Shown: positions 3,050 to 10,380 of the stretch, one piece after another
Numbering within the stretch: the stretch's first letter is position 1
How the letters are laid out: each line of letters opens with the position of its first letter
Source: a virus
IMG/VR virus record: IMGVR_UViG_3300027969_000087
Location: 1 to 64,000 of that record
Strand: one strand, 5' to 3'
DNA: 64,000 nt
Translations under genes and position numbers: made by a program
Notes under the pieces: model-generated
Database searches by the model: none
The model's input: the letters and a program-made list of their open reading frames with translations, nothing else
What the model was told of the DNA's origin: nothing

Positions 3050-3237
3050 AAGAACGCATAAAGCGCTTTGCCTTATGGCTTGGCGTCATTGAGTACAAAG
3101 AGAATGAGCGAGAGACACAGCAACGTGTAGATCAGTTGATGTTCGAACTAGCCAGCCTAGAGACTTGGAATGAGTACATCAACATACGGTGGGACTTGCC
3201 CAACGTAAACAAACCGCGCCAACCACAGGAGATCTAA
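3046..3237 (+). CDS. Small hypothetical protein
   Basis: 63 residues, helical and charged, preceded by GGGAGGAAC. It ends with a Pro-rich tail. One copy of the CCAACGTAAACAA motif (3200-3212) is embedded near its 3' end, encoding Pro-Asn-Val-Asn-Lys. The next start (3238) follows the stop directly. No family is recognised. Confidence 0.65.
   Translation: MKERIKRFALWLGVIEYKENERETQQRVDQLMFELASLETWNEYINIRWDLPNVNKPRQPQEI
3200..3212 (+). repeat. 13-bp motif copy 1
   Basis: CCAACGTAAACAA, lying 25 bases before a stop codon and 26 bases before the next start. It is one of at least eight near-identical copies, all oriented with transcription. Confidence 0.8.
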
Positions 3238-3408: not shown

Positions 3409-3756
3409 AGACTTATAGGGGAGCGATCACGGGAGTCACTACGGCGCTGTAGCCGCTACGACAGGGCGCAGGAGACCAGGTATACCGGCGATGAATAGGC
3501 AGCATCGAGCTTGAGTTAGCCTTAAAAACCTAACAATAGGGTTTCGACTGGCACGAAAATTCCCAAACGATTCCGTTCCTAATAAGAGTCCTGAGCATGA
3601 CTATAAACTGCTCTTTAGTTTTACCTGAGTTAGTCAATACGAGGAGAAACGCTCAGGTAATTCACACCTACTATTTACTTGGTAGGCACTTGACAAGTGC
3701 GGCCCTGACTTGTGTGAGAAAACAGGGCATCCAACAACAACAACAAGGAGAATAAC
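3409..3756 (+). ncRNA. Structured gene-free region, possible ncRNA or long leader
   Basis: About 350 bases without a credible gene. Clear helices include CGGC/GCCG around 3442-3455, GTTAG/CTAAC around 3515-3534, TTTCG/CGAAA with flanking GGG/CCC at 3539-3565, a perfect 9-bp stem TTACCTGAG (3621-3629)/CTCAGGTAA (3652-3660), CCTAC/GTAGG near 3667-3685, a 15-base palindrome GCACTTG-A-CAAGTGC near 3686-3700, and GCCCTG (3702-3707)/CAGGGC (3723-3728). The last hairpins lie just before the next gene, so attenuation is possible. The stretch CAGGAGACC (3469-3477) resembles part of a cobalamin-riboswitch B12 box. No known RNA family is firmly recognised. Confidence 0.45.
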
Positions 3757-4222: not shown

Positions 4223-4612
4223 ATGGGTATTCGCCCAGGAGAACGACATCCAGCCCGCGCAATCAATACGGCCAACAACTGGCTAGGTGCTTTGCTGCTT
4301 GACAGCACAGCCTACCGTATCCCAAATGATCCGGACATGCCAGACCTTGAGGGTGCAACACACAGTCACGTTATTGAGGGTGAGAACTTTGTAGTTATGG
4401 TTCTTACTCACTACAACGAGGACACCGAGACCTACACGCTGTTGAGTGTAGACAAGTCAGAGTACAACGTAGAAGATAAAAGCGGTCTGACTACACTGCT
4501 AGCACGTGGTAAGACACGTGAACAACTAGACGAGCAGAACGCTCGTGAGGTTGAGCCTAGTGATGAACACATGGCGCAAGTCATCTCTATGTTCAAAGAA
4601 CTAAACAGCTAG
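4223..4612 (+). CDS. Hypothetical protein
   Basis: 129 residues starting at the ATG preceded by AAAAAGGAGAAG; an in-frame ATG at 4142 would overlap the previous gene by 56 bases and lacks a ribosome binding site. The protein is acidic and soluble, with a central beta-rich segment. A perfect 11-bp hairpin follows its stop (4627-4659). Not recognised. Confidence 0.75.
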   Translation: MGIRPGERHPARAINTANNWLGALLLDSTAYRIPNDPDMPDLEGATHSHVIEGENFVVMVLTHYNEDTETYTLLSVDKSEYNVEDKSGLTTLLARGKTREQLDEQNAREVEPSDEHMAQVISMFKELNS

Positions 4613-4626
4613 GTGGTATGACTGTG

Positions 4627-4659
4627 GTGGCTGGCCGACATAAACAACCGGCCAGCCAC
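4627..4659 (+). terminator. Perfect 11-bp hairpin carrying the repeat motif
   Basis: GTGGCTGGCCG (4627-4637) pairs perfectly with CGGCCAGCCAC (4649-4659). The 11-base loop is almost exactly the repeat motif (ACATAAACAAC). It sits 15 bases after a stop codon, as a terminator would, but the T-run is absent (TCGCAGCCTT follows). It may be a processing site or a protein-binding hairpin instead. Confidence 0.6.
4635..4647 (+). repeat. 13-bp motif copy 2
   Basis: CCGACATAAACAA, lying in the loop and upper stem of the perfect hairpin at 4627-4659. Confidence 0.8.
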
Positions 4660-4692
4660 TCGCAGCCTTACCATCATCGGGAAGGAACCAGA

Positions 4693-4973
4693 GGTGAGAG
4701 GGATTATGCGATACGCCCTGCATAACATCATAGATTGTATGAACTGAAGAATGGTCATAGGCTCCAAGGTAAGCAATGTATCACACAGTCAATACGAAAG
4801 TATCCGGCTGTCCATGTTACTAGTCTTCGGATGGTGATGAAACTAGTCTGAGGTGTTATTCGTAGAGTAATGTGCGTATTCCTGCGGGACATACAATCAT
4901 AGGCTTTGCATCTCATCGTTGAAAGGCCAGGCTCATACAACTAGATACCATGCGTACCATAATCCCTCTCATT
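4693..4973 (+). ncRNA. Large structured RNA element, family unknown
   Basis: A gene-free stretch closed by a perfect 14-bp long-range stem: 4695-4708 (TGAGAGGGATTATG) pairs with 4958-4971 (CATAATCCCTCTCA). It continues inward as TACGC (4712-4716)/GCGTA (4952-4956) and then a nested perfect 9-bp stem GATTGTATG (4733-4741)/CATACAATC (4890-4898). Inside are ATAC-GAAA-GTAT (4792-4803, a GNRA tetraloop) flanked by ACAG/CTGT, and ACTAGT/ACTAGT (4819-4824/4842-4847). This nested long-range pairing is far beyond chance and points to a folded RNA of about 280 nt. It lacks a tmRNA tag or tRNA-like ends. A group I intron, GOLLD-like or ROOL-like RNA is not recognised. Confidence 0.7.
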
Positions 4974-4994
4974 TCTACACACTAAGGAGGCAGC

Positions 4995-5084
4995 ATGCCA
5001 AAGAAAGATAAAGAGTTGATCTTGAGTCTATCAAGAGCCAACTCTAAGCGTAAGACAACTACCCCACCAAAGAAAGGTAAGTAG
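4995..5084 (+). CDS. Small basic peptide
   Basis: 29-residue Lys-rich peptide (MPKKDKELILSLSRANSK then a basic tail). It is supported by a near-perfect ribosome binding site AAGGAGG at 4984-4990, five bases before the ATG, and by tight spacing to the next gene (1 base). It directly follows the large structured RNA. Function is unknown; the composition fits a nucleic-acid-binding peptide. Confidence 0.6.
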   Translation: MPKKDKELILSLSRANSKRKTTTPPKKGK

Positions 5085-5085
5085 T

Positions 5086-5580
5086 ATGAAAGAGATACAC
5101 CCAGGTATCTATGAGGCGTCATTAGATGATGTCAAAGATACCAAGATTGTAGGTAACGAGAGTATGCACGACTATGGGGATGGTGTAGTAGTACAAGGAA
5201 CTCTATCTTTGCTCAGTGAACTATCAAAGCACCCTGAGTTTAAATCTAGGGCTGTTGCTATTGCTGTGTTCAATGAGTCTAACAAAATGAGCAAAGTATT
5301 CTGGTACACAGGTCAACATATATTCCCCAAAGAGTATTTAGAGTTGGCTGTTGATGATAACAACATTGTAGTTGTACTTACCAACATGCCAAATCCAACT
5401 CTTACAGATGCAGAAAAGTTGACTGAGGTATTCTTACCTAAGAATGAGAACACCAACCTTGACTACCATGTGCTTGATTACATATGGTCAAACCATACGC
5501 ATGGTGCATCACTCATGTGTGAAGACTTTAGCTGTTGCCCTAAAGAGGGTTACGAAATAGAACAGATAGTGAGTATCTAA
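5086..5580 (+). CDS. Hypothetical protein
   Basis: 164 residues, acidic and soluble. A central hydrophobic beta-strand run (NNIVVVLTNMPNP) and a C-terminal CEDFSCC cluster are visible, but no known motif. GAAAGGTAAG precedes the ATG. The last base is shared with the next start (TAATG), indicating translational coupling. Confidence 0.7.
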   Translation: MKEIHPGIYEASLDDVKDTKIVGNESMHDYGDGVVVQGTLSLLSELSKHPEFKSRAVAIAVFNESNKMSKVFWYTGQHIFPKEYLELAVDDNNIVVVLTNMPNPTLTDAEKLTEVFLPKNENTNLDYHVLDYIWSNHTHGASLMCEDFSCCPKEGYEIEQIVSI

Positions 5581-5861: not shown

Positions 5862-5862
5862 C

Positions 5863-5989
5863 ATTGCACGACGGCGCTGTACTTTATTTAGCTAAGTTGC
5901 GGTACTGATACGGTAGCCCTCCGTGTGATAAGCCCTGCACGACGGAACGTAGACATGACTATTGTCAGTCTTGTTCCCTCCGTGTAGGG
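5863..5989 (+). ncRNA. Two tandem related stem-loops upstream of tRNA-Met
   Basis: Two hairpins of about 67 and 57 nt in tandem. Both use the same flanks, CACGACGG on the 5' side (5867-5874 and 5938-5945) and CCCTCCGTGT on the 3' side (5917-5926 and 5976-5985), with diverged loops. The outer stems are ATTGCACG/CGTGTGAT (5863-5870/5922-5929) and CCCTGCACG/CGTGTAGGG (5933-5941/5981-5989). The second continues as GGAAC/GTTCC and AGAC-a-TGAC/GTCA-GTCT. A conserved AC/CTC internal loop is shared. They end three bases before the tRNA. They may be tRNA-processing signals, decayed tRNA-like genes or a small RNA pair. Confidence 0.55.
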
Positions 5990-5992
5990 TGA

Positions 5993-6948: not shown

Positions 6949-8394
6949 ATGGCAATTTCCGTTTTCACCGAGTCTTATGATTCTACGATGGACAACCACC
7001 GTCGACAAGTAATGCTCGTGCCGATTGACGGTACCGTTCGCGTCTACTCACGCGTCACCGATGGTGCTAAGGGTCCACACAACAAGTGGATCGAGACCAA
7101 CGTTGACGACTTGGCTAATGAACTTCATGAGAATGAAGTACTGACTGCTGAGCCAGTGGGTGTACAAGTTACAGTTGCTGACGAACGTTCTATCCGTGAG
7201 CTTGGTTACTCACCAGTTCTCGGTACCAAGTCAGTTGCTGCACACGGTAAAGCCGAAGCAGTGTCCGACGTAAACAACTCTGCCGCCCGTATCTTTGAAC
7301 TCTACGAATCTATCATCAACAATGATGATTCATTGGTAGATCTTATCATCGATCGTCGCAAGGAGTCGTCAGTGTTCACTCCACCAGTTGCCGCCCAGCC
7401 AGCATCTATCGTTGAGACAACGACAATCGCTGCTACTGAGCAGTTCGAAGCTCCCAAGCTTCAGGTGGCACTTGCATCTGTTCCACGCAAGGAACTTGAC
7501 GAGCGTTACGTTCACCGCAACGTGTTGGGCGACACAGTCGAAGACTACAAAGCCTACGACGATGCTCGTGCCAATCACGTCAACGTGTTGATCTATGGTC
7601 CTACCGGTCCTGGTAAGACTACATCAATCGAAGCGTGGTGCGCTTCTCGTGGCCTACGCTTGGCTCAAGTATCAGGTAATGCTGCGCTTGAACCAGGTCA
7701 CCTGTTCGGTCGTCTTGTACCAGACGGTAAGGGCGGCTTTGCATGGGTCGACGGTCCTGTCACGGACGTTGTTCGCAACGGCGGTGTTCTTAACCTTGAT
7801 GAGGTCAACTTCATCTCACCTAAGATCTACACTGTTCTGTACCCATTGTTGACTAGCCAGCGTATGATTACGCTGCTTGATCATCACGGCGAAGTTATTG
7901 AGGCTCATCCAGACCTCACTATCTTTGCTACGATGAATCCTGATTACATTGGTACTCAGGGTCTCAACCATGCATTCAAGAACCGTTTCGATCTACAGAT
8001 CCCTTGGGATTACGATGACAAGGTCGAGTCCAAGCTAGTCAAGTCCAAGAATCTATTGGTACTTGCCAAGCAGTTGCGTGCAGAAGCAGCCAAGGGTCTA
8101 TACGAGACACCTATCTCAACCAACATGTTGATTGAGTTTGGTGGTTTCGTTGACCGTCTTGGTTACGAGTTCGCTGTCGAGAACTTCATTGCTCACTTTG
8201 CAAATGAAGAGCAGCCATCAGTTCGCCTCGTGTTCCAAACTCACGAGCACAATCTGAAGCCTGACTTCGGCATCGAAGTTGTGGTCAAGGAAACAAAGGT
8301 TGAAGAGCCTTTCATCCCAGGTCAAGTGATCCCAGATCCAACACCTACCGCAACCAACAGCACAGTCACTAATCCAGTGATTGTCAATATCTAA
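6949..8394 (+). CDS. MoxR/CobS-like AAA+ ATPase
   Basis: 481 residues. An N-terminal region of about 190 residues without recognised motifs is followed by an AAA+ core: Walker A GPTGPGKTT near 217, Walker B LNLDEVNF (DE near 284) and sensor-1 ATMNPDY near 327. This matches the MoxR/CobS group, ATPases that work with a von Willebrand A (vWA) partner; CobS powers cobalt insertion in aerobic cobalamin synthesis. The ATG at 6949 follows GAGAGAAGG; an upstream in-frame ATG at 6913 is less likely. The gene is followed by its probable vWA partner. In phages the real role of such pairs is unsettled; a chaperone-like remodelling role is as plausible as metal chelation. Confidence 0.85.
   Translation: MAISVFTESYDSTMDNHRRQVMLVPIDGTVRVYSRVTDGAKGPHNKWIETNVDDLANELHENEVLTAEPVGVQVTVADERSIRELGYSPVLGTKSVAAHGKAEAVSDVNNSAARIFELYESIINNDDSLVDLIIDRRKESSVFTPPVAAQPASIVETTTIAATEQFEAPKLQVALASVPRKELDERYVHRNVLGDTVEDYKAYDDARANHVNVLIYGPTGPGKTTSIEAWCASRGLRLAQVSGNAALEPGHLFGRLVPDGKGGFAWVDGPVTDVVRNGGVLNLDEVNFISPKIYTVLYPLLTSQRMITLLDHHGEVIEAHPDLTIFATMNPDYIGTQGLNHAFKNRFDLQIPWDYDDKVESKLVKSKNLLVLAKQLRAEAAKGLYETPISTNMLIEFGGFVDRLGYEFAVENFIAHFANEEQPSVRLVFQTHEHNLKPDFGIEVVVKETKVEEPFIPGQVIPDPTPTATNSTVTNPVIVNI
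7265..7277 (+). repeat. 13-bp motif copy 4
   Basis: CCGACGTAAACAA inside the AAA ATPase gene, encoding part of Ser-Asp-Val-Asn-Asn. Confidence 0.7.
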
Positions 8395-8430: not shown

Positions 8431-10380
8431 GTGTATCAAGATGAGCTAACTAGTCAATCTTATTACGGTTCATCAGTTCAGACTGATGAAGATGCACAAG
8501 AGCTAGCTGTTCGCTTAGGCTCGTTGTGCCGCGTGTATGAACAAACTGACCGTGTGCTTACTGGTGATCCAGTACAAGTTCACGTAGTCAATGGTGGTCC
8601 TGCACCGGCATGGTCTGACGGCTCAGACATTTACATCAACAAGGAAGAGATCGAACAGTTTGATCTTGACGAGTTGGTGCAGATCAATGGCCTCAACTAT
8701 CACGAGCTAGCCCACCATCTGTATACTCCCCGCAAGGGTACTACACTGATGCAATGGGTCATGGAGCAGACAGCTATTGACCCGCTGTACATGATGGCAG
8801 TCAATGTTCTAGAAGATCAGCGCATTGAGACATTGTTCACCGCACGTTATCCCGCTATCGTACCCTATCTAACCAAGACAGTGGTTCGCTGGTTGGCTGA
8901 CAGCCCAGATAAAGTATCGTCGAACTACCTAGCAATTCGTGGTCGTCAATACCTACCTCTGGACTTACGTATTGGATTCCGTGACATGTTCTTCATGCCG
9001 GAATTAATACCAGTCATTGCAGATATCGTAGATGAGTATCGTACGCTGCACTTTCCTAAGCAATACGCAGATGCACAACGGTTGATTCAGCGCTTCAAGG
9101 AGGAAGTGTTGGATAAACTAGAGCTGCCACCGGAGCAAGCACCAGACGGTGGTCCATCAGGCTGTGGTAAGCGCAACCCTGTTAGTAAGGGTAGGCCAGA
9201 AGCGGGCAAGGCTCAAGAGCGTGACTCAGAGCGTGCTAAGGGACAAGGTAATCCTGAACCGGAATACACACCTAAGCCACCTGAAGATAAGCAGCCAAGC
9301 AATGACAAGGGTGACAGTGACGACGAGTCCAACGTAAACAACGTCGGTCGTGGTCCTGGCTCTCCTGGTAATGATGGTTCATACGTTCCACCAACTACAG
9401 TTGATGAAGCACTAGCCCTGCGTGAGACCGAACAGACCACAAGTCCTGCCGGTGATGCGCATGCTCAAAGCTTGGGCGGTATCCCAGATAACATCTTGGA
9501 TATCATACGTGACATCGAGCAGTCTATTTACAACCGCAAGGACGTACAGGCTGACGTCAAGACCAAGCAACGTGTCATCATTGGCGGTGACGGTAAGCAT
9601 GACGATGGCATCAGGCGTGGCAAATACAGTACAGTAGCTGTCCCAAATGAAGTACTCGTTGTTGCTCGTCGCTTTGCCCGTGAGCTTGAGAAGCTCAAGC
9701 AAGACTGTGAGCCCAACTGGGAGCGTGAGCAATCAGCTGGGCGTCTCAACGTACAGCGCGTGATATCAGGGGCTGACCTTGATAAAGTGTTCGATCGTTG
9801 GGACGATGGAGTGGATGGCACAGACATTGAGACTGTCATGTTAGTTGACAGGTCCGGGTCTATGGGCAGCAACAATAACGACATGCGTGCTTCTGAAGCA
9901 TCATGGGTTATCAAGCGCTCAATGGAGCAGATCAAAGCTCCAGTGACTATCTATGCGTTTGACGGTCAAGCTGAGCTTGTTGCGTCTCGTGATGACAAGG
10001 TTGACAAGCTCAACCTACCATTCATCTATGGCAGTGGTGGTACTGATCCAAAGACTGCGCTTGTTGCTACCGAACGTCTGTTCAGGTCCAGCAAGCACAA
10101 GACCAAGATCATGTTCCTCGTCACTGACGGTGAGTTTAGTCACTACGAGAATGACGACATTGTCAAGCGTCTCAATGCTATGGGAGTTGTTACAGTTATG
10201 ATTCTCATTGCTGACCCGTACAGCTTGCAATCAATCACTGATCGGTATGCTCAATACCATGAGGGTGAGGACATGTGGCACGAGTGCTCTATCCACGGCT
10301 CCGTGACCACCGCTGCTGACCTTATTCCGTTCGCTAAGCAGGTTGTGACAAGCACAATCAAGAAAGCACTCAATCGATAA
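8431..10380 (+). CDS. CobT-like vWA-domain protein
   Basis: 649 residues, GTG start preceded by AGAGGAGG. The N-terminal domain holds HELAH at 91-95, an HExxH zinc-site signature also seen in CobT-type proteins. A low-complexity Pro/Gly/Glu-rich linker (about 225-330) follows, then a helical stretch and a C-terminal vWA domain with the MIDAS motif DRSGS (473-477), GGTDP near 536 and VTDG near 565. This is the build of CobT, the vWA partner of CobS. Direct adjacency to the ATPase supports a two-component chelatase- or remodelling-like machine. No CobN-like large subunit is seen in the window. Confidence 0.8.
   Translation: MYQDELTSQSYYGSSVQTDEDAQELAVRLGSLCRVYEQTDRVLTGDPVQVHVVNGGPAPAWSDGSDIYINKEEIEQFDLDELVQINGLNYHELAHHLYTPRKGTTLMQWVMEQTAIDPLYMMAVNVLEDQRIETLFTARYPAIVPYLTKTVVRWLADSPDKVSSNYLAIRGRQYLPLDLRIGFRDMFFMPELIPVIADIVDEYRTLHFPKQYADAQRLIQRFKEEVLDKLELPPEQAPDGGPSGCGKRNPVSKGRPEAGKAQERDSERAKGQGNPEPEYTPKPPEDKQPSNDKGDSDDESNVNNVGRGPGSPGNDGSYVPPTTVDEALALRETEQTTSPAGDAHAQSLGGIPDNILDIIRDIEQSIYNRKDVQADVKTKQRVIIGGDGKHDDGIRRGKYSTVAVPNEVLVVARRFARELEKLKQDCEPNWEREQSAGRLNVQRVISGADLDKVFDRWDDGVDGTDIETVMLVDRSGSMGSNNNDMRASEASWVIKRSMEQIKAPVTIYAFDGQAELVASRDDKVDKLNLPFIYGSGGTDPKTALVATERLFRSSKHKTKIMFLVTDGEFSHYENDDIVKRLNAMGVVTVMILIADPYSLQSITDRYAQYHEGEDMWHECSIHGSVTTAADLIPFAKQVVTSTIKKALNR
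9329..9341 (+). repeat. 13-bp motif copy 5
   Basis: CCAACGTAAACAA inside the vWA gene linker, encoding part of Ser-Asn-Val-Asn-Asn. Confidence 0.7.

Follow-up and report, generated by a model that had tools for sequence, protein, structure and literature searches.

A candidate phage RNA family whose closing helix is kept by compensatory change

Introduction

To our knowledge, very few phage RNAs that are both large and structured have been described, and no settled function exists for the GOLLD/ROOL type. The DNA analysed here (the window, 64,000 nucleotides) makes up most of a 68,039-bp IMG/VR virus record. A reading made from its sequence alone had noticed, at 4693–4973, what looked like a large structured RNA of about 280 nt closed by a 14-bp stem. 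Is this stretch an RNA that selection has kept, does it belong to a known family, and what might it do? The question is worth asking since the RNA offers a compact case (~290 nt) whose ends are defined and of which nature supplies four divergent variants, and since an operon with several uncatalogued conserved RNA modules is a good place to ask what structured RNAs do in phages. The nearest annotated isolates, found through a CobT-like protein (8431–10380), are Gordonia and Brevibacterium phages at an identity of about 30% or less, so the host is probably an actinobacterium.

Results

The locus and its homologues

The RNA sits in a gap of 382 bp. The gene 5′ of this gap encodes 129 residues and ends at 4612; the gene 3′ of it encodes a 29-residue peptide and begins at 4995. 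No notable open reading frame was found inside the RNA region, in agreement with the sequence-only reading, which had seen no gene there. The features discussed below are as follows.

4627–4659, + strand: hairpin hpA, with a 10-bp stem in the window and the loop motif CRACAUAAACA
4666–4685, + strand: small hairpin hpB directly 5′ of P1, with the stem CCUU:AAGG in the window
4690–4708, + strand: 5′ strand of the 19-bp closing helix P1, pairing with 4958–4976
4712–4716, + strand: 5′ strand of P2 (UACGC), pairing with 4952–4956
4735–4742, + strand: 5′ strand of P3 (UUGUAUGA), pairing with 4933–4940 in the minimum-energy fold
4749–4754, + strand: 5′ strand of the tentative helix Pc (GAAUGG), pairing with 4856–4861
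4785–4811, + strand: hairpin P4 with a GAAA tip; in L041 the stem persists, altered in sequence, and the tip is non-GNRA
4856–4861, + strand: 3′ strand of the tentative helix Pc (UUAUUC), pairing with 4749–4754
4862–4909, + strand: apical hairpin Pa/Pb, comprising an outer stem, an asymmetric internal loop, an inner stem, a bulged C and a UCC-UGCG-GGA tip
4933–4940, + strand: 3′ strand of P3 (UCAUACAA), pairing with 4735–4742 in the minimum-energy fold
4952–4956, + strand: 3′ strand of P2 (GCGUA), pairing with 4712–4716
4958–4976, + strand: 3′ strand of P1, ending 7 nt 5′ of the AAGGAGG of the next gene
4995–5084, + strand: gene of a basic 29-residue peptide, a neighbour and not part of the RNA

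Homologues were sought by recruiting 38 viral loci through the AAA ATPase gene that lies 2 kb downstream of the RNA; L041 was added through a conserved 93-residue neighbour. Four close relatives were obtained (L041, L002, L003 and L029). L041, L002 and L003 each carry a stem-closed stretch of 285–305 nt at the equivalent place in the operon, so that all four members of the RNA, the window's included, are syntenic. The L041 RNA region is 71% identical to that of the window. L002 and L003 have almost no sequence that can be aligned to the window over the RNA, and each has a ~300-nt non-coding stretch with a long closing helix. L029 has the peptide gene and lacks the RNA, which is thus evidently dispensable in some phages.

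The peptide gene and its ribosome-binding site had been called correctly from the sequence: the AAGGAGG is present and homologues of the peptide occur in three relatives. The family consists of basic peptides of 26–29 residues (window 4995–5081, L002 8297, L003 7449, L029 8388; consensus MPKKDKKLVLSLV.ANSKRK), and the window peptide gave no Pfam match. A fixed link between RNA and peptide is not supported. In the window and in L003 the RNA is followed by the peptide gene, and in L041 by the gene of a 164-residue-type protein; in L002 at least two further RNA modules separate it from the peptide gene. An assignment of the 164-residue neighbour to DUF4192, made from a CCP motif, was dropped because Pfam gives no match.

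Further members were not found by a DNA search against phage records, by searching GTDB genomes with two of the proteins, or, by motif, among viral contigs with the CobT-like protein. A search of viral contigs with the two small neighbouring proteins yielded no new carrier besides L041, and the matches of an RNA motif pattern search other than L041 look unrelated by their flanking sequence.

The closing helix

The 14-bp pairing reported from the sequence (4695–4708 with 4958–4971) is present as placed, and five more pairs extend it to a 19-bp helix, P1 (4690–4708/4958–4976), which includes two G-U pairs. None of 2000 dinucleotide shuffles reached 19 pairs, the maximum being 14, and none reached 14 Watson–Crick pairs. 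The closing helices of the relatives are 17 bp (L041), 18 bp (L002) and 14 bp (L003) long and unlike that of the window in sequence; in L002 AUGAGAGUAGAGAGUAAC pairs with GUUAUUCUCUACUCUCAU, and in L003 AGGGAAUGGGGAGU pairs with ACUCCCCAUUCCUU. These lengths were equalled by 0, 0 and 5 of 2000 shuffles for L041, L002 and L003, respectively. Between the window and L041 all 16 aligned P1 pairs are kept, 11 of them unchanged, 2 with a change on one side and 3 with changes on both sides. Since unlike closing helices occupy one genomic place in four phages, it is the pairing and not the sequence of P1 that is conserved, and comparison of the four homologues shows this as compensatory change.

The + strand of 4680–4990 folds at −93.2 kcal/mol, better than its shuffles (z = −2.7), whereas the − strand hardly differs from its own (z = −1.2). 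The z-scores and the G-U pairs both favour the + strand.

The apical hairpin

The second element common to all carriers is the hairpin Pa/Pb. Each of the four sequences, folded alone, gives the identical apical shape of an outer stem, a short asymmetric internal loop and an inner stem. This is followed by a bulge, which is C in all but L003 (CU), and by a three-pair tip, UYY-UGCG-RRA. The stems vary in sequence, the outer ends being GAGU..GCUU in the window, UAGU..GCUA in L041, ACAAG..CUUGU in L002 and UUGAC..GUUGA in L003, and the 12-nt tip TTCYTGCGRGAC is retained; the motif common to the four is UYY-UGCG-RRA-C. Compensatory change shows that the predicted hairpin is kept in four phages. Among 51 phage records, namely the window's own, L041, L002, L003, L029 and more distant kin, each of the four carriers has a single copy of TTCYTGCGRGAC, and the one other occurrence lies within a coding frame. 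A match to TTCTTGCGAGAC in the record of L033 was discarded because it falls inside a 640-residue reading frame.

Interior helices

The 5-bp stem that had been seen inside the closing helix is present as P2, and hand alignment gives changed counterparts in two relatives (AGUGC:GCACU in L041, GGUA:UACC in L002). For P3, alignment by hand gives AAAUGAU:AUCAUUU as the counterpart in L041 and GCGUA:UACGC as that in L002; L003 has no clear P2 or P3. The tentative helix Pc has the hand-aligned counterparts GAAUCCA:UGGAUUC in L041 and CUAACA:UGUUAG in L003 and is imperfect in L002 as tested. The P4 stem is ACAGUC:GGCUGU in the window and ACAGUAA:UUACUGU in L041. The counterparts of P2, P3 and Pc were placed by hand, and conservation of the interior helices, though plausible, is weaker evidence than that from P1 and the apical hairpin. 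In the two distant members the interior helices are aligned wrongly by MAFFT.

Two inner elements of the sequence-only reading fared less well. Its perfect 9-bp stem (4733–4741 with 4890–4898) exists as a string match and was rejected as a conserved part. The minimum-energy fold does not contain it, and L041 offers no complement for it. It also conflicts with two conserved helices, since it shares its 5′ bases with P3 and, if formed, would destroy the inner part of the apical hairpin. Its GNRA hairpin, UAC-GAAA-GUA, does lie inside 4785–4811, but the tip is not conserved, being UAUU in L041. The comparison across related phages that the reading had proposed came out for the closing pairing, which shows compensatory changes, and against the 9-bp pairing. 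The overall picture of a large structured RNA closed by a stem is upheld by the homologues, in which P1, the 5-bp helix inside it and the apical hairpin persist in different sequences.

Upstream hairpins and the extent of the unit

Two hairpins, hpA and hpB, lie upstream of P1 in all 4 carriers, with stems that are changed yet paired. The hpA stem covaries, being UGACCGGC:GCCGGUCA in L002, GAUAGCCAGCC:GGCUGGCUAUC in L003 and UGGUC:GACCA in L041, where it is interrupted by the contig end; the L002 loop motif is CAACAAAAACA. The hpB stem is CCUGA:UCAGG in L041, CCCCU:AGGGG in L002 and UCCCUUU:AAAGGGA in L003. The hpA motif was looked for in L029, the phage without the RNA, and not found. On these grounds hpA and hpB probably belong to the RNA, and the unit would then span 4627–4976. 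Over hpA, Rfam gave weak microRNA, C4 and Atu_Ti1 matches, all far under threshold, consistent with a plain hairpin.

The 11-mer CCAACATAAAC is over-represented in these phages. Overlapping loci that total 2.05 Mb contain it at 26 distinct places and its reversed control at 1; examples are window 4636, 10415 and 14649 (− strand), with others in L003, L041, L071 and elsewhere. Its copies are frequently 3′ of stop codons or adjoin hairpins, some of them terminator-like. As it recurs in this way, CCAACATAAAC is not specific to the RNA.

Comparison with known RNA families

The 280-nt element matched none of 4227 Rfam families, either at gathering thresholds (searched over the window) or at E-values up to 10 (searched over 4400–5200), in line with the sequence-only reading, which had recognised no family. 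The scan it had suggested for GOLLD, ROOL, group I introns and tmRNA was likewise negative. None of the covariance models for GOLLD, ROOL and the group I intron (Intron_gpI, with the conserved P7/P3 core) matched, whether at gathering threshold across the whole window or with E-values as high as 10 in 4400–5200. No tmRNA, with its tRNA-like domain and tag reading frame, was reported by ARAGORN, which lists only two tRNAs in the window. One of the window's tRNA genes, a tRNA-Met gene called by ARAGORN, is 1.0 kb from the RNA. The element resembles group I introns and tmRNA in overall size and in its nested long-range helices, but differs from them in having no Rfam or ARAGORN match.

ROOL RNAs are encoded by phages or prophages, multi-branched, often near tRNA genes and without known function; the solved structure is a 659-nt RNA with several pseudoknots that forms an octamer, and in one strain ROOL is as abundant as 16S rRNA (PMC12286853). 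The window RNA is like ROOL in being phage-encoded, multi-branched and close to a tRNA-Met gene, and unlike it in its length of ~290 nt and the lack of an Rfam ROOL match. GOLLD RNAs are large, carried by phages or prophages and located near tRNA islands, with many members longer than 800 nt and a conserved 3′ region (PMC12286853); the window RNA shares the phage origin and the tRNA gene nearby, but not the length or an Rfam match. In its homologues the fold is kept by compensatory change, as expected of a structured phage non-coding RNA. On this comparative evidence we regard the element, read on the + strand, as a real and new family of phage RNA.

Discussion

What the RNA may do

We tentatively favour a stand-alone non-coding RNA that would be cut from an operon transcript and act in trans as an RNP or scaffold, a reading to which we give somewhat less than an even chance. 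P1 would join both ends and isolate the RNA domain from the flanking coding sequence. P2 and P3 would lead to a junction bearing an internal domain and the conserved apical hairpin with its bulged C and UGCG tip. In consensus scans of the + strand, neither a sigma-70-like promoter upstream of the RNA nor a terminator in its surroundings was found. Because neither a promoter nor an intrinsic terminator was found between the RNA and its neighbours, it would be made within the operon transcript. (A search for a single-subunit RNA polymerase, PF00940, gave no match, but control genomes gave none either.) Nucleases might then shorten or cleave the transcript as far as P1, so that a stable RNA remains, most likely an RNA–protein particle or scaffold with the apical hairpin as putative binding site.

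GOLLD and ROOL already provide examples of long, multi-branched RNAs that phages carry close to tRNA genes, which speaks for this reading. A precedent for a helix such as P1 is found in the processing stems of precursor rRNA, which are long closing helices of variable sequence and conserved pairing that frame an RNA within an operon transcript. P1 is likewise long, variable in sequence and kept in pairing, and frames a structured RNA in an operon. No RNase III (PF14622) is recognisable in the record of the window's phage or in that of L041, so cleavage by RNase III would need the host enzyme.

The main rival is a cis-acting leader or an mRNA-protecting element. As a leader, riboswitch-like or sensing a protein, the RNA would control translation of the gene just downstream, and we think this unlikely while taking it seriously. 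Its position in the operon is conserved, and in 3 of the 4 members (window, L003 and L041) the closing helix ends 18–31 nt 5′ of a start codon, leaving the ribosome-binding site free. This synteny and proximity count against the trans-acting reading, because a cis element would show the same. Against a leader, however, the downstream gene varies (peptide, 164-residue-type protein, other RNAs), making control of a single gene less likely than an RNA with a job of its own; moreover, L029 has the peptide gene without the RNA, and no alternative pairing was seen between the RNA and the ribosome-binding site.

Rather improbable, in our judgement, is that the RNA punctuates the operon. As a rigid block it would halt exonucleases or guide cleavage by endonucleases, and the mRNAs on either side would then decay separately. 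The long P1 and its intergenic position fit such a role, as do the many structured modules of the same operons (fam2, fam3 and the H-type pseudoknot described below) and the hammerhead match within the window. A simple hairpin would suffice for it, however, and a multi-branched RNA of 290 nt with conserved loop blocks exceeds the need; its length, its branching and these loop blocks fit an RNA or RNP that acts in trans better than a simple stability element.

Very little speaks for an element acting as DNA, either an origin or a small mobile element with terminal inverted repeats. Inverted repeats of 14–19 bp do flank ~250 bp, but they differ among homologues while staying complementary, the reverse of the pattern in a mobile-element family, and a MITE or similar inverted-repeat element was rejected on this covariation. 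In addition, inspection by eye showed no target duplication at the flanks, and P1 contains G-U pairs, which need RNA. A retron-type RNA closed by a1/a2 repeats would share the long helix around a structured RNA, but is hardly credible, as no reverse transcriptase (PF00078) was found in the record of the window or of L041 when control genomes did match. Chance complementarity, to which the z of only −2.7 for the single sequence might point, is refuted by the homologues, with four closing helices of unlike sequence and a shared apical hairpin, and its probability is negligible.

Beyond the trans-acting reading itself, this could be the first-seen family of stand-alone phage RNA particles acting in trans and encoded in operon RNA islands, an extension that we regard as speculative and on balance doubtful. 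In such islands several unrelated structured modules (the window RNA, fam2, fam3 and a widespread H-type pseudoknot capping fam2 and fam3) would stand in tandem.

Other RNA modules in these phages

A second conserved structured RNA, fam2, lies at 3409–3622 of the window, at about 7960–8060 in L002, at 6342–6530 in L003 and, as two tandem copies, at 7905–8305 in L029. Its end sequences, ACUUAUAGGGGAGCGAUC and CGAUUCCGUUCCUAAUAAGAGUCC, are nearly fixed, and the window copy has no credible Rfam match. A third conserved non-coding module, fam3 (AGAAGACUCGUA ... AAAUAACGGAG; L002 8128–8285, L003 6200–6340, L029 7757–7905), adjoins fam2 and was not seen in the window.

The 3′ end of fam2 is an H-type pseudoknot (AGUC-CU-GAGCA-U-GACU-AUAAAC-UGCUC, window 3589–3615), whose first stem covaries freely. 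Its architecture is a 4-bp S1, CU, GAGCA, any nucleotide, S1′, AUAAAC and UGCUC, and this pattern matched at least 120 viral stretches (L136–L255). It is also present at L002 8031 and 8095, L012 2444, L027 3502, L029 8071, L060 3409 and L072 3456, often just 3′ of a stop codon and ahead of the following gene. Two isolates, Roseobacter phage SIO1 and Celeribacter phage P12053L, have it shortly 3′ of the ribonucleotide reductase gene. Rfam over 20 pseudoknot loci gave tRNAs, whose overlaps were partly checked, and one pistol ribozyme, none suggesting a pseudoknot family. No description of it was found in the literature searched, which is weak evidence of novelty. A covarying pseudoknot in more than 100 phage contigs may outweigh the main RNA in importance.

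A type II hammerhead ribozyme match lies at 304–365 of the window (39.4 bits against a threshold of 37), and L003 has an 80% identical stretch at 3055–3124. In L002, an eight-codon frame (ATGAGAGTAGAGAGTAACACTACATAA) behind a perfect AGGAGG follows the 5′ side of the closing helix (7647–7681); by eye, it has no counterpart in the other three carriers. Two more stem-closed elements were seen by eye directly 5′ of the tRNA-Met gene, at L003 8338–8455 and L029 8776–8895. The window sequence at 5862–5990 is divergent relative to these two elements, the ends of which are, again by eye, changed yet paired (UUCUGCGUG/CACGCAGAA against UUUUACGUG/CACGUAAAA).
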